Shown here piece after piece: positions 6,482-57,545 of a stretch of DNA of 64,000 nucleotides (positions are counted from its first letter, which is position 1; the number at the start of each line of letters is the position of its first letter). The stretch is taken from the NCBI RefSeq assembly GCF_030915465.1, contig NZ_CP133267.1, positions 2,510,501 through 2,574,500 on the forward strand, read 5' to 3'. The position numbers were made by a program, and so were the translations under genes. The DNA is from Neobacillus sp. PS3-34 (GTDB lineage Bacteria > Bacillota > Bacilli > Bacillales > Cytobacillaceae). The notes under the pieces were generated by a model that was not told the origin of the DNA, did no database searches, and saw only the letters and a program-made list of their open reading frames with translations.

Positions 6482-6679
6482 AAAAAGCCAGGCCGTGGCT
6501 CAGGTATCAAGATTGAAGATTACCCGCTAAGTTTGGGCGAGTACCCGTCAATTCGGACCGTTTACCCGTCTGATTAGCAAAATACCCGTCTAGTTGAACA
6601 CTTTACCCGTCGATTAAGCGGAAATACCCGTATTTGGCAGGATGGCCACAATTCAAAAAGCCATGGCCGGTGGCTCAGG
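6482..6679 (+). repeat. 21-bp periodic array, motif TACCCGTC, between ~24-bp direct repeats
   Basis: TACCCG begins at 6521, 6542, 6563, 6583, 6604 and 6625: spacing 21 except one 20. Thirteen to fourteen bases per unit vary. The array is bracketed by near-identical direct repeats AAAAAGCC(A/AT)GGCC(G)GTGGCTCAGG at 6482-6504 and 6655-6679. It contains stops in frame and shows no coding signal. Confidence 0.8.
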
Positions 6680-10627: not shown

Positions 10628-10740
10628 GGTCGGTGTTTTTGATTGTTCGGTGGGTAAATAGGGACAAGTGGTGGAAAAATGGATGAAACCGGTTGGTAAA
10701 AGGATCATAGTGGTGGGTAAATCACCAAAATGGGTGGGTA
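10628..10740 (-). repeat. 21-bp periodic array, motif TACCCACC on the minus strand
   Basis: The motif GGTGGGTA (plus strand) and its variants end at 10635, 10656, 10677, 10698, 10719 and 10740, all 21 bp apart; the 10635 and 10677 units are degenerate. On the minus strand this is TACC(C/A)ACC, the motif of the array at 6341-6466, so the two arrays face each other across mbl-fabZ. No gene is seen in 10574-10935. Confidence 0.75.
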
Positions 10741-10935
10741 ACCGAAAATGTCGGCCTACTATAGAGAGGAATGTTCCCTAAGCTAGGGGAAGTGCTGGTA
10801 AGAACTTCTCTTTTCGATTTTCGCGAATCGACGAGTTTTATTAGTGAAAAAAAGATGCAATTTTTTTTCGTTGCAGGGCATCCTAACATCAGGCCAATGT
10901 TCAAGGTCGAAAGAAAATGGAAGGAGACTCACACA

Positions 10936-30284: not shown

Positions 30285-33200
30285 ATGAAGAAAATAATTA
30301 GAAAGAACTATAAGCGCTGGACAAGCACGTTCTTGGCAGCTCTTTTGTTGGTCAGCACGTTTTTGCCAAGCAGTTTAATGGGCAGGGCAAGTGCGGCTGT
30401 CGCCAATCATGTTGTAATCTCACAGGTCTTTGGCGGTGGAGGCAATTCAGGGGCTCCATATAATAAGGATTTCATAGAGTTATATAATCCTACTGATGCT
30501 GCTGTACCTCTTAGTAATTGGTCTATACAGTATGCCTCAACAGCCGGAACAACTTGGCAAGTAACTCCTTTAGCCGGAACAATTCAGCCGCATGGCTATT
30601 ATTTAATTACTGAAGCATCAGGTGGAGCAAATGGAATCGATCTTCCAACAGCGGATGCTTCAGGTGCAATCACGATGGCTGCGGGGGCAGGAAAAGTAGC
30701 TTTGTTTAACAATCAAACAACCGCTGCTTCAGGTTCAATGCCTGCAGGTGCAGTTGACTTGGTTGGATATGGAACTGGAACTGTAGGCTTTGAAGGAACT
30801 GGACCTACCCAAACCATTTCAGCTACAAAGAGCGCTCAGCGTCGCCCCTATGAAGGTGTAGATCCAGCCCCTACAAAAGGCAACGCATGGGATACAGATG
30901 ACAACGCAACTGACTTCTTTGTTGGAGCTGTAGCTGCTCCAAAAAACACTGCAAGCCCAGCGGAAACTCCTTTTGTTCCGAATTTCAGCTTGCAGCCTAA
31001 AGGAATCAATATTCAATTTTTACAACAAACTGGTTCTATAAAAGTAACAGGTACTGCGGATGCAGTTGCAGGAAATTCAATTGTAAAATTTTACGAAAGC
31101 GCTACCAAAGGAACAGCACTTGGAACAACCACTGCAGCCTCTGATGGTTCTTTTGACGTAACGATCACGACTACAAAAGTTTTAACTTCTGTGTTTGTTG
31201 CAGCTACACAGGCTGGCAAAGACGAAAGCCCGGCGGTCGAAGTGAACGTGGCGAAAGCCAGCACAGCCGTCGTACAGGCAAAGTTAAGCTATTTCGTCTC
31301 AAATGGTAAAGGCACATTAGTAGGCGGTGCAGGTGCGGCAGCAGCCCAATCCATTATAAATGTCTACCCAAATGATACAGCGAACAAAACTGAAAAATTA
31401 GTGGCAGATGAGATTAAAGCGGGCGCAGCAGGTGATTTTTCAGTAACCTTCAACAATGCTCCTGATACTGTTTATGTAACACAGCTGTCGAGCAGCACGA
31501 AGGGAATCATGCTGGAAAGCGTTCCTACTTCGATTTTGAAAGCAGATACAAGCATGGTAACGCCACTAAGCGATGTCCGGACGTTTGATACAAAGGGACA
31601 GCCGGTCAACCTAAATAAGTTCTATACGATTGAAGGCGTCGCGACAGTTGATAATCAAATATTAGGTACACAAAAGCAAAATTTCTACATTCAAGATAAT
31701 ACTGGCGGAATTAATATCTTCCATACTTCCTATGATCCAGGCTTCTCCGTCGTAAAAGGCGACAAGCTGCACATCACAGGTAAAGTTCTTTACTATAACG
31801 GTTTAACAGAATTCGAGCCAGTATCGATGGAAAAAATCAGTGAAGGCAACCCGATACCGGCAGCAAGAGAGCTAACACTCTTAGATTCAATCACTTTTGC
31901 AACAGCAGAGCCACTTGAAGGAAGCCTTGTAAACGTAACAGGTAAGGTTTCTGCCTCGGTAGCGAGCGGAGCAAACTACAATGTTACATTCGTTGATGAA
32001 AACAATAAAACCACTACCCTAAGGGTAATGGATAAAACAGGCATCAAGCCTGACACGGATCTTGTAACTGGAAAAAGCTACACGGTTACAGGTGTCATGG
32101 GCCAATACACAACAAATGTTTCCGCAACAAGTGGTTATCAGATTTACCCTCGTGATGTAAAAGACATCGCATCGGTTCTGCAAATCACGCATACAGCTTT
32201 AACAAAGGTATATCAAAATGCCAATGTTGAATTCGAAGCAAATGCCGATGGCGCGGAGTCTGTAACGGTATATTACCGTGCAAAAGGCACAACAGCAGAA
32301 TATAGAGCTCTTCCAATGGCTAAGGGCAGCGAAGGCCGCTATACGGCTACTTTGGAAGCAGCTAATGTTCCTGAAGATGGATTCGAGTACTATATTGAAG
32401 CAAAAGCAGGAACTAAAACACAGGCAGCTGGTTCCAGCGCAGCTCCATTTATAGTCGAATTAATACCGGACCAAGAAGGACCGGTCATTAACGGCGAAAC
32501 ACCTCAAGGTGGTACGAAGGTAGAAAGTCCTCACCCGGAAATTTCTGCATTAATCAACGATCCAAGCGGTGTTGACGAAGCTTCCGTTCATTTCTGGTTT
32601 GATGGCAACGAATTAACAGCACCAGCAGCAACAATCAACAAAAATCAGGTGAAATACACGCCTGAAGAAGATCTTACACTCGGTTTGCATACTGTTAAGG
32701 TAACTGCAGCTGACTTGAAGCACAATCCGACCACCTATGAGTGGACATTTGAAGTGGTTCCACGTTTCACAGGCGGTCATCACTATCGTGGTACGACACA
32801 TAACCACACCAATATTTCACACGATGCATCCGGAACACCGGAAGATGCTTTAAAAGCTGGTAAAGCGCATCATTACGATTGGTTTGCATTCTCAGATCAT
32901 TCACATGACATTGACCCTACCCTTCTTGGCCAGGATACTGTAGACCATAAAGGCATGCAGGAGCGTACTGGCGGAGAGCAATGGCAATTAACGAAGGACC
33001 TTGCAAAGAAATATACGAAAAATGACGATTATGTTGTTTTCCCTGCTTTTGAAATGACCTCCACTACATGGGGACATTCCAATATCTTTGGAACAGACAA
33101 TTTCATTGACCGTAATATCAATGGCAAGCAATATCAGGATTTGAACAAGTATTATGCTTGGGTTATGACCTACGACGATATCGTCGGACAATTTAACCAC

Positions 33201-36200
33201 CCAGACATGTCAGCAAATGCATTCAATAATTTTAAGCCTTACAACAAAGACCTGGACAAGCTATTTACGATGCTTGAGGTTGGTAACGGTTCTGGACACT
33301 ATGGATATGCAAATGCGGATAAAAAGTTCTACTCTGCACTTGATTTAGGCTGGCATGTTGCCCCTACTTACGGTGAGGATAACCACGAAGGAACTTGGGG
33401 ACAAACAAATGCACGTACAGTTATTGTCGCTGATGATCTTTCCCAGGAATCCCTCATGCATTCAATGCGCAATATGCGCGTGTACATGGAGGAAGATCCA
33501 AACTTCACGTTGGACGTCCTTGCAAATGGCTTCTATATGGGTTCAACGGTTGACAGCAAATCACTGAAATTCAACATCTCAGGAAGCGACCTGGTTGCTG
33601 AAGCGCATAATGACAGCGACTATAACTATCTTCCAACTTCCTACAAGTCAGATGATCGAATTGCTAAAGTAGAGTTGATCACAAACGGCGGAACGGTTGT
33701 AGATTCCATCACGCCAATGACAAAGGATTTCAAATGGAATCCGACTTACACAGTAACTGGCGGCCAGCAGTGGTTCGTCGTAAAAGTAACTCAAATGGAT
33801 GGCGAAAGAATTTATTCTTCACCTATCTGGTCAAAAGAACAGGCTGTCGATGTCAAAGTAAATGGCATTGATATCACGGGCGATGTTATCGTTGGAGGAA
33901 ACCCTGCTTCGTTAAAGGCTACTGTTGCTAATAACGGAACAGAAACAGTGAAAAACCTGAAGGTAGACTTTTACTATGATGAAGTGAACCAGGATCATTT
34001 CATTGGTACAAATACGATTTCTTCTATCCTGACAAAGAGCTCTGCAGCAGCAACAGCAACATGGGCCAACCCTGTAAACGGTGACCATAAGCTGATTGTC
34101 GTTGTCACCTCGAATGACGGACTGGACATTGGCGATGTGAAATATGAAATGCCGGTGAAAATTAAAGAACCGCTTGGAATCAAGGTGTTAATCGATGCTA
34201 ATCATGGCAATGAAAACTCTTCTGGTGACAGCGGAACGTATAAGGATAATTTAAAATCCTTCACACTTCTTCTTCAAAAAGAAGGTTACACGGTTGCAGA
34301 AAACAAACAGGCGTTAACTAGTGATGTGTTAAGCAATGTTAAAATTTTAGTGCTTACTCATCCGAGAACAGCTTTGACTGCTGATGAAAGAACAGCCGTC
34401 GCAAATTTTGTGAAAAATGGCGGTTCCTTATTAATGGCAGGAAAGAGCAATAATAGCACGGATCCAACGATCAATAACTCCTTGTTAGGTGACATTGGAT
34501 CAGCGATTCGTATGGGCAATGACGGAGTATTTGATGACAGTAAATCAGGAAACTTCTGGGGTGACCCTAAGTTATCTCCTTATGCGGTCAGGGTACATCC
34601 AGGACTCGTTTCCAACTTCATTACCGACCGCGTGTCGTTTGTTGATTACTACAGCGGAACAAGCTTGTCCGGTGTGAATAATCAGCCGCTAACGGAAAAT
34701 GGCAAGGTCGTTATTTTGGCAAAAGGTAACGAAACCACTTACCAGGGCAATATCAAAGGCGGTTACACGTACGATAATGTTTCCGATGCAACAGGCGGAT
34801 CTGCGATTCCATTAATTGCTTCAGAGAAAATCGACAAAGGCCGTGTGATTGTATCCGGTATGAATATTTTCAATGACAAGCAGATGGATCAGTCATTTGA
34901 ACCAAAGGGCAATGATGAGTTCTCATTGAATGCCATCAACTGGCTTGCAAATCGTGAGACGAAGGTCACCAACATTTCTGATGTTCGCAAATTAGCGGAC
35001 GATACAGAAGCGGTGATCGAAGGTACCGTTACAACAGCAGCAGGTGTATTCTTCGATGCTTTCTATGTCCAGGATGATACTGGCGGAATCATGGCATATA
35101 AAGAAGCTCCTGAAGGCTCATTAAAAACGGGTGACAGAGTTCGTGTTTATGGACACGTGAAAACGTATGAGACGAATACAGAGTTTGAATTCAACACTTT
35201 CGCAGCAGATGTGATCAAAATTGGACACGTCGATCCATTGCTTCCGAAGCAAGTAGCAACAGGTTCTGCTACTACTGAGGAAAATCAAGGATTGCTCGTA
35301 AAAGTAACAGGTAAAGTCGTTTCCAAATATGATGAAAATTCATATGTAATAAATGACGGCTCCGGACCAGTCCTCGTGTTTACAGATGGTTACATCGTGA
35401 ACCAGAGCGGACCAGTTCCAGACCTGCAAGTTGGCGATACACTTGAAGCAGTAGCGCTTTCCGGCAAGTTCGTCGAAGGAAATCGTCTCCGTGTTCGCGA
35501 TACAAAGGAACTCGTTGGCACGAAAATGACTGCAGAGCAGGCAGCAGCCAAGACAGAAGCGGAAGCAAAGCTTGCATTGATTTTAGGTGCAGACGAAATT
35601 ACCTATACGAATCAAGCAGATGTTCAATCAGCAGTAGATCAAGCGAAAGCGGCAATCACTGCAGCATTAACAGCTGGCTGGGGACAATTTGAAGTTGAAG
35701 CATTTGCTGGCTACGGAAAAATTGCCGGAGCTGAAGCGAAAATCGCTCAATTGGAAACAGCAAAAGCAGATGCAAAAACAGAGGCGGAAGCAAAGCTTGC
35801 ATTGATAAAAGATGCAGGCCAAATCACATACAGCGATAAATCAGCAGTACAAACGGCCATAAGCGATGCAAATGCGGCTATCGCAGCAGCATTATCTCAT
35901 GGCTGGACACAGACTGATGTTGAAGGCTTTGCAGGCTACGAAAAAATTGCGGCCGCAGAAGCTAAATTGGCTGAACTGGAAACAGTAAAAGCGGAAGCAA
36001 AAACAACAACAGAAACAAAGCTAGGATTAATTCCAGACGCAAGCCAAATTACACACGGCACTGTAAAAGCTGCCCAATCAGCGGTAGATGAAGCAAAAGC
36101 TGCGATTACAGCAGCATTCGCTGCAGGCTGGATGCTGACAGAGGTAGAAAGCTTCAATGGCTATGGCAAACTTGCATTAGCTGAAGCGAAAATCGCCCAG

Positions 36201-37100
36201 CTAACAGATGCCAAATCAGCCGCAAAATCCGTTGCAGTTACTAAACTTTCAGCCATCCTAAGTTCAGGCAACATTAACTACAGTAATAGAGCAGCAGTAC
36301 AGTTAGCAGTAAATGAAGCAAAATTAGCTATTCAATCTGCATTGTCTACAGGCTGGACTCAAGCAGAAGTAGAAAACTTCCCAGGCTATGAGAAAATTGC
36401 TGTTACAGAAGCAAAAATAGCTGCGCTTGAGAAGGAAGAAGCGGATGTTATAGCACAACAGGAAGCAAAAGCCAAAGCAGAGGCAGAAGCGAAGGCAAGA
36501 GCTGAAGCAGAAGCGAAGGCAAAAGCAGAGGCAGAAGCAAAAGCTAAGGCAGAAGCAGAAGCAAAAGCCAAGGCAGAAGCAGAAGCGAAAGCCAAAGCAG
36601 AGGCAGCTGCAAAAGCTAAGGCAGAAGCAGAAGCTAAAGCAGCAGCCAAAGCGGCAGCAGAAGCAGCTGCCAAAGCAGCACAAGAAGCAGCAATGCAGAA
36701 AAAAGCACTGGAAATCCAAAAACAGGCAGATAAGAACATCAAGGATTACAAAGCTGCCCTAAACGTACTTCCAAAGCTTAATCAATATACTGCTTCTATT
36801 AAAGTAGACAGCAAAGGAAAAGTGGACCCAGCTAAATTAGCAAGTGCCCTTGGCCAATACCAGGCTGTCGTAGCAGAATTAAACCGTGCGCAGAAAACAG
36901 CTCTTGCCACATCAACAGTTGCAAATGCTGCAATCCTATTGAACAAAAAGGTAAGTGACAAAGTCATTGCTGACTTCGTCAAAAAATCTGTTACCTCTTC
37001 CAAGCAGGTAGACAGCATCATCAAAACGCTAAGCAGCAAAAAAATCAACACCACAGAACTAAACAAACTATCTGCCGAACTTAAGAAACAAAAGAAATAA
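30285..37100 (+). CDS. Giant exported lamin-tail/OB-fold/PHP (CehA/McbA-like) metallohydrolase
   Basis: 2,271 residues; start at 30285 after AAAGGATGG. Signal peptide to about 38 (GRASAAVANH). Then a lamin-tail domain (40-215), an Ig-like segment, an OB-fold of the YhcR type (about 440-560, FYIQDNTGGINIFH), Ig-like domains (630-825), a PHP hydrolase (about 830-1120) with metal ligands in HYRGTTHNHTN and FSDHSHDID, a CARDB domain, a class I glutamine amidotransferase-like domain (about 1295-1560), two more OB-folds (FYVQDDTGGIMAY), four 75-residue helical repeats (1745-2045), an Ala/Lys/Glu coiled coil (2055-2138) and a helical C terminus. OB plus PHP suggests a surface phosphoesterase or nuclease. 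No SLH or LPXTG anchor. Confidence 0.8.
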   Translation: MKKIIRKNYKRWTSTFLAALLLVSTFLPSSLMGRASAAVANHVVISQVFGGGGNSGAPYNKDFIELYNPTDAAVPLSNWSIQYASTAGTTWQVTPLAGTIQPHGYYLITEASGGANGIDLPTADASGAITMAAGAGKVALFNNQTTAASGSMPAGAVDLVGYGTGTVGFEGTGPTQTISATKSAQRRPYEGVDPAPTKGNAWDTDDNATDFFVGAVAAPKNTASPAETPFVPNFSLQPKGINIQFLQQTGSIKVTGTADAVAGNSIVKFYESATKGTALGTTTAASDGSFDVTITTTKVLTSVFVAATQAGKDESPAVEVNVAKASTAVVQAKLSYFVSNGKGTLVGGAGAAAAQSIINVYPNDTANKTEKLVADEIKAGAAGDFSVTFNNAPDTVYVTQLSSSTKGIMLESVPTSILKADTSMVTPLSDVRTFDTKGQPVNLNKFYTIEGVATVDNQILGTQKQNFYIQDNTGGINIFHTSYDPGFSVVKGDKLHITGKVLYYNGLTEFEPVSMEKISEGNPIPAARELTLLDSITFATAEPLEGSLVNVTGKVSASVASGANYNVTFVDENNKTTTLRVMDKTGIKPDTDLVTGKSYTVTGVMGQYTTNVSATSGYQIYPRDVKDIASVLQITHTALTKVYQNANVEFEANADGAESVTVYYRAKGTTAEYRALPMAKGSEGRYTATLEAANVPEDGFEYYIEAKAGTKTQAAGSSAAPFIVELIPDQEGPVINGETPQGGTKVESPHPEISALINDPSGVDEASVHFWFDGNELTAPAATINKNQVKYTPEEDLTLGLHTVKVTAADLKHNPTTYEWTFEVVPRFTGGHHYRGTTHNHTNISHDASGTPEDALKAGKAHHYDWFAFSDHSHDIDPTLLGQDTVDHKGMQERTGGEQWQLTKDLAKKYTKNDDYVVFPAFEMTSTTWGHSNIFGTDNFIDRNINGKQYQDLNKYYAWVMTYDDIVGQFNHPDMSANAFNNFKPYNKDLDKLFTMLEVGNGSGHYGYANADKKFYSALDLGWHVAPTYGEDNHEGTWGQTNARTVIVADDLSQESLMHSMRNMRVYMEEDPNFTLDVLANGFYMGSTVDSKSLKFNISGSDLVAEAHNDSDYNYLPTSYKSDDRIAKVELITNGGTVVDSITPMTKDFKWNPTYTVTGGQQWFVVKVTQMDGERIYSSPIWSKEQAVDVKVNGIDITGDVIVGGNPASLKATVANNGTETVKNLKVDFYYDEVNQDHFIGTNTISSILTKSSAAATATWANPVNGDHKLIVVVTSNDGLDIGDVKYEMPVKIKEPLGIKVLIDANHGNENSSGDSGTYKDNLKSFTLLLQKEGYTVAENKQALTSDVLSNVKILVLTHPRTALTADERTAVANFVKNGGSLLMAGKSNNSTDPTINNSLLGDIGSAIRMGNDGVFDDSKSGNFWGDPKLSPYAVRVHPGLVSNFITDRVSFVDYYSGTSLSGVNNQPLTENGKVVILAKGNETTYQGNIKGGYTYDNVSDATGGSAIPLIASEKIDKGRVIVSGMNIFNDKQMDQSFEPKGNDEFSLNAINWLANRETKVTNISDVRKLADDTEAVIEGTVTTAAGVFFDAFYVQDDTGGIMAYKEAPEGSLKTGDRVRVYGHVKTYETNTEFEFNTFAADVIKIGHVDPLLPKQVATGSATTEENQGLLVKVTGKVVSKYDENSYVINDGSGPVLVFTDGYIVNQSGPVPDLQVGDTLEAVALSGKFVEGNRLRVRDTKELVGTKMTAEQAAAKTEAEAKLALILGADEITYTNQADVQSAVDQAKAAITAALTAGWGQFEVEAFAGYGKIAGAEAKIAQLETAKADAKTEAEAKLALIKDAGQITYSDKSAVQTAISDANAAIAAALSHGWTQTDVEGFAGYEKIAAAEAKLAELETVKAEAKTTTETKLGLIPDASQITHGTVKAAQSAVDEAKAAITAAFAAGWMLTEVESFNGYGKLALAEAKIAQLTDAKSAAKSVAVTKLSAILSSGNINYSNRAAVQLAVNEAKLAIQSALSTGWTQAEVENFPGYEKIAVTEAKIAALEKEEADVIAQQEAKAKAEAEAKARAEAEAKAKAEAEAKAKAEAEAKAKAEAEAKAKAEAAAKAKAEAEAKAAAKAAAEAAAKAAQEAAMQKKALEIQKQADKNIKDYKAALNVLPKLNQYTASIKVDSKGKVDPAKLASALGQYQAVVAELNRAQKTALATSTVANAAILLNKKVSDKVIADFVKKSVTSSKQVDSIIKTLSSKKINTTELNKLSAELKKQKK

Positions 37101-37256: not shown

Positions 37257-37695
37257 TGCCCAATAAAGTGGATCTATTGGACAGAACCTGGTTCATGCGC
37301 GGCGGAAATGTCCGATAAAGTGGTCTTATTGGACAAAACCCGGCAGGAGAACCGGCAAAATGTCCAATAAAGTGGTCTTGAGGACAAACCCTGCCAGGGA
37401 ACGGAAAATCTGTCTTCAAAAGAGGTCTTGAGGACAAAACCAGCTCAAGGAACGGAAAATCTGTCTTCAAAAGAGGTCTTGAGGACATAACCAGCTCAAG
37501 GAACGGAAAATCTGTCTTCAATAAGGGGTCTTGAGGACAAAACCAGCTCAAGGAACGGAAAATCTGTCTTCAATAAGAGGTCTTGAGGACAAAACCAGCT
37601 CAAAGAACGGAAAATCTGTCTTCAATAAGAGGTCTTGAGGACAAAACCAGCTCAAGGAACGGAAAATCTGTCTTCAATAAGGGGTCTTGAGGAAA
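37257..37695 (+). repeat. Tandem 52-nt hairpin array (nine units), two stem types
   Basis: Units start at 37257, 37309, 37361, 37411, 37462, 37513, 37565, 37617 and 37669 (period 50-52). Each has a 26-27-nt hairpin and a ~25-nt spacer. Units 1-2 use TGTCC(A/G)ATA...TATTGGACA; units 4-9 use TGTCTTCAA...TTGAGGACA (9 bp with one G-U); unit 3 joins the left arm of the first type to the right arm of the second. Spacers read like AAACCAGCTCAAGGAACGG. No ORF explains it; the gap 37185-37844 holds no gene. Confidence 0.9.
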
Positions 37696-44804: not shown

Positions 44805-45038
44805 CTATTAATAGAAGGACTTTATTGGACAAAACGATCGGATCCAAAGTTCATACTGTCCAATAGAAAGTCTTTATTGGACAAAACGGTCGGCCTAAAG
44901 CTCATACTGTCCAATAGAAAGATTTTATTGGACAAAACGATCGGCTCCAAAGTTCATACTGTCCAATAGAAAGTCTTTATTGGACAAAACGGCCGGGTAC
45001 AAAGTTCATTCTGTCCAATAGAAATGCTTTATTGGATA
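44805..45038 (+). repeat. Tandem 52-nt hairpin array (four complete units, one degenerate)
   Basis: Complete units start at 44857, 44908, 44960 and 45012; a degenerate unit ends at 44831. Hairpin TGTCCAATA-N9-TATTGGACA (9-bp stem, 9-nt loop, usually GAAAGTCTT) alternates with ~25-nt spacers like AAACGGTCGGCTCCAAAG. The last right arm, TATTGGATA, keeps pairing through a G-U. It lies 3' of yqjF with no terminator seen before it. Confidence 0.9.
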
Positions 45039-45117: not shown

Positions 45118-45255
45118 AGTTGATTGGAACGGAAGGTGCGAGACTCCTGCGGGAGCAGCGGGACAGGTGAGACCCCACAGTCGCTGTGCGCCGAGGAGGC
45201 TCACCGCCCGCCCCGCGGAAAGCGAGCATCCTGAAGTGGAAATCAACCACTCCTT
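45118..45255. repeat. GC-rich dispersed Bacillaceae repeat
   Basis: About 135 bp with GTTGATT/AATCAAC ends and a GC-rich core containing GAGACTCCTGCGGGAGCAG, GTGAGACCCC and CCCCGCGGAAAGCGAGCA. I recognise this sequence from many Bacillus-type genomes as a dispersed intergenic repeat; the apparent ORF on its minus strand is an artefact. Confidence 0.75.
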
Positions 45256-54700: not shown

Positions 54701-56526
54701 ATGAGTTTAATTACCCGTAAAGATGTGCCGCTTGAAGAGACATGGGATCTAACACATATTTTTGCTTCTGATGAAGAATGGGAAATGTCCTACATTCAAG
54801 TTGATCAGGATTTGAATGAGATTCTTCATGGCACAGTTCACTTAGATAGTGGAAAAAGTATTCTTGAATTACTTCATAGATACGACCGCTTAATGGAAAA
54901 ATTCAGTCGAACATCTAGTTACGCTTTCTACAAATATTCGGAAGATGGCACAGACTCTGATAATCAAAAGATGAAGGGACGTTCGCAGACTCTAGCGAAA
55001 AAAACCTATAATATCAGTACAATGATAGTCAATCGTTTTCTACAATTACCTAAAGGGGTATTGAAAAAGTACATGGAAGAGGAGAAGGTGCGCAAACCTA
55101 TCATCGATTTATGGAAAAAATTGAGGCGATTCGCGATCATTCATTAAGCCCAGAGATGGAAGATTTATTGGCTTCTTTAAGCCAAACGCTAAATACACCT
55201 AATTCCATCTATTTAACTATTACTGCCTCTGACTTAAAATTTGAACCGGTTAAAGATATAAATGGAAAAGAGGTTCCTGTTTCTCTTTTCATGTATATGA
55301 CTCAAATTGAAACATCACCTGATACAGAGCTGCGAAGAAATGCGTATCAGTCCCTATCAAATGGTTTGAAGAAATATCAACATGGCTTAGCCCAAACTTT
55401 ATCCAGTGAAATACATAACAATGTATCGATTGCAAAACTGCGTAACTATCCAACGACGATGGATTATTTGCTTCAATATGATTCCCCGGCAAACAATCAC
55501 TTTTATGCAGGGGATGGCGTTTCTCCACAATATTTTGAAGATGTATTAGATACGTTTCAGCAAGAACTTTCACCCCATATGCAAAGATATGCACGACTAA
55601 GAAAACGCCAGCTTGGTTTAGATGAACTGCTTTTCTCAGATGTTAAAGCACCATTAGACCCTGATTTTGATCCGCCTATTAGTTATAAGGAAGCAGGAGA
55701 AATCATTGTTGAAGCTGTTGGGCCACTAGGTTCTGAATATCAGGAATTAATGAGAAAGGTGTTTAAGGAAAGATGGGTATATAGAGGCGATAATGTGGGA
55801 CGAAGAATGATCGCCTTCGGCGGAGGCGTTCATGGTGTCCATGGATATTCATTTTACCCATGGGGTGGAAATCTATTTGATGTGCTTCTCCTCGGACACG
55901 AGCTTGGGCACGCGATCCATTACACGCTTTCTGCTCAAAATCAACGATTCATAAACAATGGGCAATCATTATTATTTGTCGAGGCACCGTCTACATTAAT
56001 CGAACATTTAATTGTACAATACTTGCGGGAAAATAGGGATGATCCTCGATTACACCGCTGGTTAAATATGTATTCGATGATGAGCTACCATCATAATTGT
56101 GTGACGCATATTTTAGAGGCTGAATTGTTAAGAAGACTATACAAAATGGCCGATCAGAAGATTCCTTTAACGACAACCGTTATTAGTAACACAAAAGGAA
56201 CTATTTTATCAGAATTCTGGGGAGACACCGTCGTAATTGATGAAGGGGCAAAGCTAACATGGATGCGGCAGCCTCATTATTATATGGGCCTTTATCCTTT
56301 TACCTATTCAATTGGTACATCAGCATCCACTGTAATCGCTAAACGAATCCAAAAGGAAGGATTATCAGTGGGTGAACAATGGACAGATGTGCTGAAGCGT
56401 GGAGGAACCATGAATGGCTTCGACTTATTTAAGATGGCAGGACTCGATATGTCAACAACAGACGTCATAAAACAAGCAATCGCTCATGTCGGAAACATTG
56501 TTGATGAGTTGGAAAATAGTTTTTAA
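54701..56526 (+). pseudogene. M3 family oligoendopeptidase F, frameshifted
   Basis: Cytoplasmic zinc oligopeptidase. Start at 54701 after AAAAAGGAG. About 608 residues when repaired. Zinc motif HELGHAIH with a downstream Glu in FVEAPSTLIEH, and the M3 C-terminal motif region YYMGLYPFTYSIG. One T is missing near 55122 (GATTTATGG for GATTTTATGG), splitting the first 140 residues from the rest. Catalytic part intact. Followed by the largest hairpin array. Confidence 0.85.
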
Positions 56527-56629: not shown

Positions 56630-57545
56630 TGTCTGAATAAGCCCTGCATTCGGACAATCGGAGTTACTAATCGGCTTGTCGTGTCCGAATAAGCCCTGCA
56701 TTCGGACAATCGGAATTACTTATCGGCTTTGTCCTGTCTGAATAAGCCCTGCATTCGGACAATCGGAGTTACTAATCGGCTTGTCGTGTCCGAATAAGCC
56801 CTGCATTCGGACAATCGGAATTACTTATCGGCTTTGTCCTGTCTGAATAAGCCCTGCATTCGGACAATCGGAGTTACTAATCGGCTTGTCGTGTCCGAAT
56901 AAGCCTTGCATTCGGACAATCGGAATTACTTATCGGCTTTGTCCTGTCTGAATAAGCCCTGCATTCGGACAATCGGAGTTACTAATCGGCTTGTCGTGTC
57001 CGAATAAGCCTTGCATTCGGACAATCGGAGTTACTTATCAGCTTGTCGTGTCCGAATAAGCCTCGCATTCGGACAATCGGAGACAATTATCGGCTTGTCG
57101 TGTCCGAATAACCCCTTCATTCGGACAATCGGAGACAATTATCGGCTTGTCGTGTCCGAATAAGCCTTGCATTCGGACAATCGGAGTTACTAATCGGCTT
57201 GTCCTGTCCGAATAAGTCCTGCATTCGGACAATCGGAGTTACTTATCGGCTTTGTCCTGTCTGAATAAGCCCTGCATTCGGACAATCGGAGTTACTAATT
57301 GGCTTGTCGTGTCCGAATAACCCCTGCATTCGCACAATCGGAGTCAATTATGGGCTTGTCCTGTCTGAATAAGCCCTGCATTCGGACAATCGGAGTTACT
57401 AATCGGTGTGTTCTGTCCGAATAAGCCTAGCATTCGGACAATCGGAGTTACTAATCGGCTTGTCCTGTCCGAATAAGTCTCGCATTCGGACAATCGGAGG
57501 TACATTTCGGCTTTGTCTGTCCGAATAAGCATTGCATTTACTAGG
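56630..57545 (+). repeat. Tandem 52/53-nt hairpin array (17 full units and one truncated)
   Basis: Units start at 56630, 56682, 56735, 56787, 56840, 56892, 56945, 56997, 57049, 57101, 57153, 57205, 57258, 57310, 57362, 57414, 57466 and 57518. Hairpin TGTCCGAAT-N9-ATTCGGACA (9-bp stem, 9-nt loop such as AAGCCCTGC) plus 25-26-nt spacer (ATCGGAGTTACTAATCGG...). Six units have TGTCTG, keeping a U-G pair in + strand RNA. In the first half two variants alternate, giving a ~105-nt higher-order repeat. The last unit is truncated in its right arm. Confidence 0.95.

Follow-up and report, generated by a model that had tools for sequence, protein, structure and literature searches.

Constant-length tandem repeats are a known feature of Bacillus genomes: Subirana and Messeguer (2021; PMC8161180) described 52-nt repeats, constant in size and variable in sequence, in about 30% of the Bacillus species they studied, suggested an RNA or a polymerising protein behind them, and stated that there was no evidence for a Cas-like protein. 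Here, we analyze three tandem arrays in a 64,000-nt stretch of DNA from Neobacillus sp. PS3-34 (positions 2510501-2574500 of a single 4.90-Mb contig; hereafter the window), at 37257-37695, 44805-45038 and 56630-57545, each alternating a ~27-nt palindrome with a ~25-nt spacer at a period of 52. An initial annotation treated the three as one class of element, which re-reading of the coordinates and a pattern scan bear out, and knew of no described element of this architecture, a statement that the published 52-nt repeats overturn. We propose that each array is probably a row of dyad-symmetric DNA sites and that its partner is a family of proteins combining a NERD nuclease fold, a zinc ribbon and a helix-turn-helix. 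The arrays themselves are thus already known; what appears to be new is their palindromic plan, the link to a protein, the correlation that points to specificity, and the derivation of orphan arrays from gene-linked ones.

The likeness to the published repeats extends to unit length (51-53 nt), to sequences that vary by family and species, to a patchy distribution over Bacillus and to some consensus units that are identical; B. coagulans and other families in Table 1 of PMC8161180 match stems found here. Several equal-length families share the PS3-34 genome, with three or more stem classes and numerous types of spacer, and mapped arrays hold 4 to 17 units, where the published class starts at four repeats. 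PMC8161180 differs in reporting no palindrome plan, partner gene or descent from gene-linked arrays, and a word search of its main text finds no "palindrom-", "hairpin", "nuclease" or "NERD". A literature search, mostly without subscription papers, returned neither a link between NERD and 52-nt repeats nor the palindrome plan, the specificity correlation or the descent of orphan arrays, and the accessible part of PMC6749651 has no mention of "52 nt". No Rfam family reaches its gathering score anywhere in the window.

RAYT genes encode a nuclease-type activity and lie beside their own repeats, and in type III toxin-antitoxin systems such as ToxIN a nuclease gene lies next to a short tandem array, with the antitoxin RNA array upstream of the toxin. 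Our arrays share with ToxIN a nuclease gene adjoining a short tandem array, but they lie downstream of that gene (61 of 64 flanks), have a period of 52, are palindromic, lack an RNA strand signature and have dispersed copies. With repetitive extragenic palindromic (REP) sequences and bacterial interspersed mosaic elements (BIMEs) they share dispersal as extragenic palindromes in clustered copies, but, set against the accessible part of PMC3733652, they lack the unpaired GTAG/CGTC tag and have an exact 52-nt tandem step and a freely varying stem. REP/RAYT systems moreover have a Y1 (HUH) transposase, whereas the recurrent linked gene here encodes a NERD protein (PF08378; no genome-wide search for Y1 was made). 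Finally, the accessible part of PMC10910872 describes non-CRISPR interspaced repeat array systems, in which a nuclease-fold or GGDEF gene stands beside a regular array, the GGDEF loci having transcribed repeat arrays. Those systems have hypervariable spacers, and the one mention of NERD in that part of the source is in a figure legend, as one of the putative CRISPR auxiliaries; spacers here recur within an array, unlike the unique spacers of CRISPR. Overlap with the PMC10910872 systems, including the GGDEF loci, is possible. GGDEF-type proteins adjoin arrays at three of our loci (L018, L054 and L091; Pfam-checked for L091 only).

An all-against-all comparison of 438 open reading frames within 2.5 kb of arrays reveals one recurrent neighbor: a family of ~300-aa proteins present at eight loci, at seven of which it lies 40-214 bp from the array. 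The three members tested match NERD (PF08378) at 63-77 bits against a Pfam cut-off of 22.1, and the domain order is NERD, zinc ribbon, helix-turn-helix. A structure model (pLDDT 92) contains the nuclease fold, the zinc ribbon, the helix-turn-helix and C-terminal strands that include residue 298. Among 59 sequences the invariant residues include E42, Q72, D74 and Q116, and K89 is conserved in at least 90%; we read E42, D74, K89 and Q116 as a putative PD-(D/E)XK-type catalytic set. A profile built from seven members was run against 397 genomes of the order, scoring no more than five candidates in each; 242 genomes match at E<=1e-20, and 146 of those 242 hold a strong member (E<1e-60, our own cut). 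Strong members are present in 64 of the 67 genomes with TGTC-type arrays, versus 82 of the 330 without (uncorrected for kinship).

The link also holds when approached from the gene. We sampled the flanks of 70 family loci: 30 returned loci, one per genome, and 40 further high-ranking matches. When TGTC ends are assumed, 19 of the 70 carry a 3' array of at least two units. When they are not, a tandem lag (identity of 0.55 or more across about 104 nt) of 52 nt (n=55) or 51 nt (n=6) appears in 61 of the 64 3' flanks that were N-free and sufficiently long, spanning 29 genera; two of the three remaining loci carry a 52-nt array upstream. In 5' flanks, by contrast, any lag is found in 8 of 66, and a lag of 52-53 in 6. 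These gene-linked arrays, whose half-sites include TGGCCTTCATA, GGCGTTCATC, TCCTCTTCATC, TGTCCTTTTGA and GTAGATCCAAA, start a median of 52 nt past the gene, and many lack TGTC, which is one stem class among many. The NERD-type protein is, on these associations, the probable candidate partner of the 52-nt arrays.

Protein and palindrome also vary together (Mantel r=0.49, p=0.001, 49 loci), and the correlation resides in one end of the protein. The partial correlation for residues 205-302 given residues 1-200 is 0.42 (p=0.001), against 0.105 (p=0.058) for the reverse; in six draws of 27 loci, each genus being represented once, the C-terminal partial is 0.46-0.57 (p=0.002) and the reverse 0.02-0.14 (p at least 0.12). 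At the level of single residues, the half-site TTCAT accompanies 19 of 21 proteins with Q297, versus 1 of 28 with other residues there, the three K297-W298 proteins pair with ATAGA, and the three D298 proteins pair with GAA. More than one pairing of residue and half-site occurs within several genera. As far as sequence comparison can show it, then, the palindrome is tracked by the C-terminal part of the protein and not by its NERD part, and we regard recognition of the array sites by the protein as the firmest element of our proposal, with a good probability of being correct.

The arrays themselves combine a fixed geometry with freely changing stems. Window palindromes measure 26-27 nt, with loops of 8-9 nt and steps of 51-53 nt, and TGTC lies inside the stem, where it pairs with GACA. 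The initial annotation had both arms changing together within a fixed geometry, and both statements hold. Among 23 distinct units, chosen by us from the window and three other loci of the genome, 97.6% of stem cells pair, versus a mean of 81.5% in shuffled and 30-43% in slid controls. In 12 array-positive genomes of our choosing, 1872 junctions have a 25-nt spacer, against 37 with 26-56 nt and 26 with 0-24 nt, mostly one base off. Of 397 genomes across the order, 67 contain the pattern TGTCY-N17-RGACA-N25-TGTCY-N17-RGACA; they represent 30 of 135 genera and reach as many as 423 matches per strand, and a control pattern has zero matches in the same 397; a phylum-wide sample yields 2 of 398 genomes, both from the same family as PS3-34. 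An exact-pattern scan of named genomes found 46 stretches, in Neobacillus, Pseudoneobacillus, Sutcliffiella, Caldibacillus, Alkalihalobacillus, Ureibacillus, Litchfieldia and unplaced Bacillus. Stems vary between these taxa, while the constancy of ends and geometry is built into the search pattern. The period agrees among the named genomes, with two exceptions: in N. drentensis, periods of 51 and 52 occur side by side, and in Bacillus sp. S/N-304-OC-R1 the period is 50-51 and many palindromes are 26 nt long.

With the geometry fixed, slippage alone is a poor account of these arrays. A neutral minisatellite, growing by slippage and unequal exchange, with template switching in imperfect palindromes mimicking covariation, would fit the internal uniformity of arrays and the gain and loss of whole units between species at the same site. 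A period held across 29 genera speaks against it, as do graded differences between units: across 60 arrays and 383 units, the mean unit-to-unit difference rises from TGTC/GACA (0.03) through the inner stem (0.11) and loop (0.22) to the spacer core (0.26; the scan favors paired units). Neutral drift would also leave the gene-family link and the protein-site correlation unexplained, and we consider it very improbable. Selection on the structure, which the initial annotation argued for either as RNA or as a paired binding site, finds support in its second form and not in its first. As RNA, the array would be the 3'-terminal part of the NERD-type transcript or an independent small RNA, with hairpins bound or cut by the protein in the manner of a type III toxin-antitoxin system. 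Arrays do start close behind the gene, and a terminator-like site (by a home-made rule) intervenes in just 6 of 60 cases, so that transcription likely runs through the gene-linked array; the accessible part of PMC8625621 reports reads that cover such repeats in B. coagulans. The spacer, further, keeps a fixed polarity relative to the gene, being T-rich after the palindrome on the gene's strand in 46 of 52 cases (A-rich in 5), and several arrays of the PS3-34 genome show G-U pairs on the gene-sense strand. The G-U-preserving variants noted earlier are indeed seen in the window, but they are not a rule elsewhere: on the gene's strand, 66 gene-linked arrays hold 308 G-U pairs against 271 A-C, with 14 arrays leaning each way. 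This absence of strand bias speaks against selection for an RNA hairpin and agrees with sites in duplex DNA. Outside the PS3-34 genome arrays occur in both orientations relative to the upstream gene, a fixed 52-nt step has no obvious meaning for RNA, and a helix-turn-helix suggests DNA; an RNA element is in our judgment unlikely.

A DNA hairpin could instead be the substrate, extruded as a cruciform or from single strands and recognized in the way that an integron integrase recognizes attC or a resolvase a junction. Against this, the arm sequence tracks the protein's C-terminal domain, which suggests that bases rather than shape are read, and we rate this explanation as also unlikely, if anything slightly more so. 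The covariation agrees better with dyad-symmetric DNA sites spaced at five helical turns than with hairpins in RNA: a protein dimer would read both arms, and the arms would then covary without any hairpin. Since 52 bp corresponds to five turns of B-DNA, all sites would face one side of the helix, and the protein could line up along the array. The conserved nuclease center may then introduce breaks or nicks in or close to the sites, and repair templated by another array would copy units to new places and add or remove whole units. Such nuclease-driven spreading is a possibility that we take seriously but stop short of favoring.

Arrays of this kind are numerous in the PS3-34 genome. Searched with a loose geometry pattern, it yields 188 junctions on the forward and 175 on the reverse strand, versus 1 and 1 for the reversed control, and 34/36, 0/0 and 25/13 (forward/reverse) in three other genomes of the genus. 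Pattern and model searches add at least 20 stretches to those of the window; the 23 mapped arrays, window included, have 4-17 units each and are internally uniform, and additional arrays lie, for example, near 187 kb, 345 kb and 2997 kb. All 20 profile candidates of this genome were scored; among them are three family members of full length, located at 466, 2997 and 4886 kb, and another three that score more weakly. The arrays linked to the three full-length genes have half-sites TGTCCAATAGA, TGTCTGAATAG and TGTCCTCAATA, respectively, and the same three stem classes recur in window arrays 2, 3 and 1 (numbered in order of position). Among 436 half-sites of the 23 arrays, 382 fit the three gene-linked classes, 16 a CTTCAT class and 38 none, the classes having been set partly from the same data. 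Spacers of three orphan arrays are 0.88-0.96 identical to those of the 466-kb array, and the spacer consensus of window array 1 is 0.84 identical to that of the 4886-kb array, with rotated controls at most 0.52 in both comparisons; window arrays 2 and 3 have no such match to gene-linked arrays (array 2 against the 466-kb array, 0.48). Because the linked arrays show the same three stem classes, and in one case the spacer too, the window arrays look like orphan copies of gene-linked arrays, and would stand to the NERD-type genes as REP elements stand to RAYT genes.

Individual sites fit movement of arrays and of units. One array interrupts the thl-hbd operon of PS3-34, in a gap of about 729 nt with 12 pattern palindromes; the gap measures 4 to 566 nt in 25 compared relatives (at most 231 nt in 23), and none of the 25 has a TGTC palindrome in it. 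Where N. drentensis and Bacillus sp. ISL-18 have arrays at the same site, the difference amounts to whole units; a second pair aligns less clearly. Litchfieldia salsa (L036, 5763-6100) and PS3-34 (L071, 6049-6646) have five neighboring genes in common and an array in the same gap, so some sites have been kept across genera or hit twice. A terminator-like hairpin of nearly identical sequence (TGACGTATG...CATACGTCA or similar) precedes five arrays (L063, L064, L065, L072 and L073), which look as though they had settled behind it. The strict stem pattern has no match at about 2.67-4.87 Mb of the PS3-34 genome, with all 59 forward places listed; other stem classes do occur in this region (2997 kb).

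Within the window (Table 1), the stems at 37, 44 and 56 kb are TGTCTTCAA, TGTCCAATA and TGTCCGAAT, an order that differs from the one in which the initial annotation had listed them. Its count of nine units at 37 kb holds for eight, which pair by scan; the ninth (37361) is a mismatched chimera, and the array is composite, with two TGTCYRATA-type units, the chimera TGTCCAATA...TTGAGGACA, and then six TGTCTTCAA/TTGAGGACA units. The scan finds four pairing units at 44857-45038, behind a degenerate first unit at 44805, and 17 at 56630-57492, followed by a truncated end.

Table 1. Array segments and other features of the window
Feature	Coordinates	Strand	Relation or basis
Array 1, units 1-2, class TGTCCAATA/TATTGGACA (unit 1 TGCCC, unit 2 TGTCCGATA)	37257..37335	+	Class of array linked to NERD-type gene at 466 kb
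Array 1, chimeric unit: left arm CAATA class, right arm CTCAA class, junction in loop	37361..37386	+	Read directly
Array 1, six units, class TGTCTTCAA/TTGAGGACA	37411..37695	+	Class and spacer (0.84) of array linked to gene at 4886 kb
Array 2, one degenerate and four full units, class TGTCCAATA/TATTGGACA	44805..45038	+	8 of 9 half-sites of the class of the 466-kb gene
Array 3, 17 full units and one truncated, class TGTCYGAAT/ATTCGGACA	56630..57545	+	34 of 45 half-sites of the class of the array linked to the 2997-kb gene (L166); 11 unassigned
Short array of ~21-nt units (TACCCGTC)	6540..6625		
Short array of ~21-nt units (GGTKGGTAAA)	10649..10760		
2271-aa open reading frame	30285..37100		Lamin-tail domain match
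Repeated GC-rich element (GGTGCGAGACTCCTGCGGGAGCAGCGGGACAGG)	45125..45200		Also in L063 and L074
M3 peptidase gene, 5' of array 3	54701..56526		Two overlapping frames
M3 peptidase gene, first frame	54701..55147		
M3 peptidase gene, second frame	55111..56526		Family match starts here

Of the neighboring features, the GC-rich element adjoins some arrays, the 2271-aa open reading frame has a long Lys/Ala/Glu-rich repeat near its end, and genes related to the split M3 peptidase gene are full-length elsewhere, at ~600 aa. The two short arrays may bear on a possible sister branch of the NERD family. PMC8161180 names 20-21 nt as the other constant-size repeat class. Three distant NERD paralogs of PS3-34 (L174, L175 and L176) show no 52-nt lag; their best 5'-flank lag is 42 or 21 nt (0.58-0.69 over 84 nt), and lag 21 is best in just 1 of 69 upstream flanks of other genes. 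The GGTKGGTAAA motif also occurs in repeats upstream of a distant NERD paralog 1.1 kb to the left of the window. As a lead, drawn from three cases in one genome, 21-nt arrays (two helical turns) may form a second constant-size class that belongs to this sister branch.

The 52-nt repeats, constant in length and variable in sequence, have stood as a published enigma: why that length, and which protein? Pairing them with the NERD-type family names a candidate, predicts which proteins and arrays should match and which residue to change, and would explain covarying arms without RNA. A more ambitious picture, which we hold slightly more tentatively than the spreading itself, is that of a bacterial satellite DNA with its own enzyme, in which residue 297 is proposed to be set against the middle of the half-site in a simple residue-to-base code, the protein lines up along its array in steps of five turns, nuclease-driven copying spreads the array, and dozens of orphan offspring arrays accumulate per chromosome. 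If true, this would be an enzyme-linked tandem satellite of bacteria, comparable to RAYT and REP but built on another nuclease fold, and with a specificity code that can be read in a small protein.
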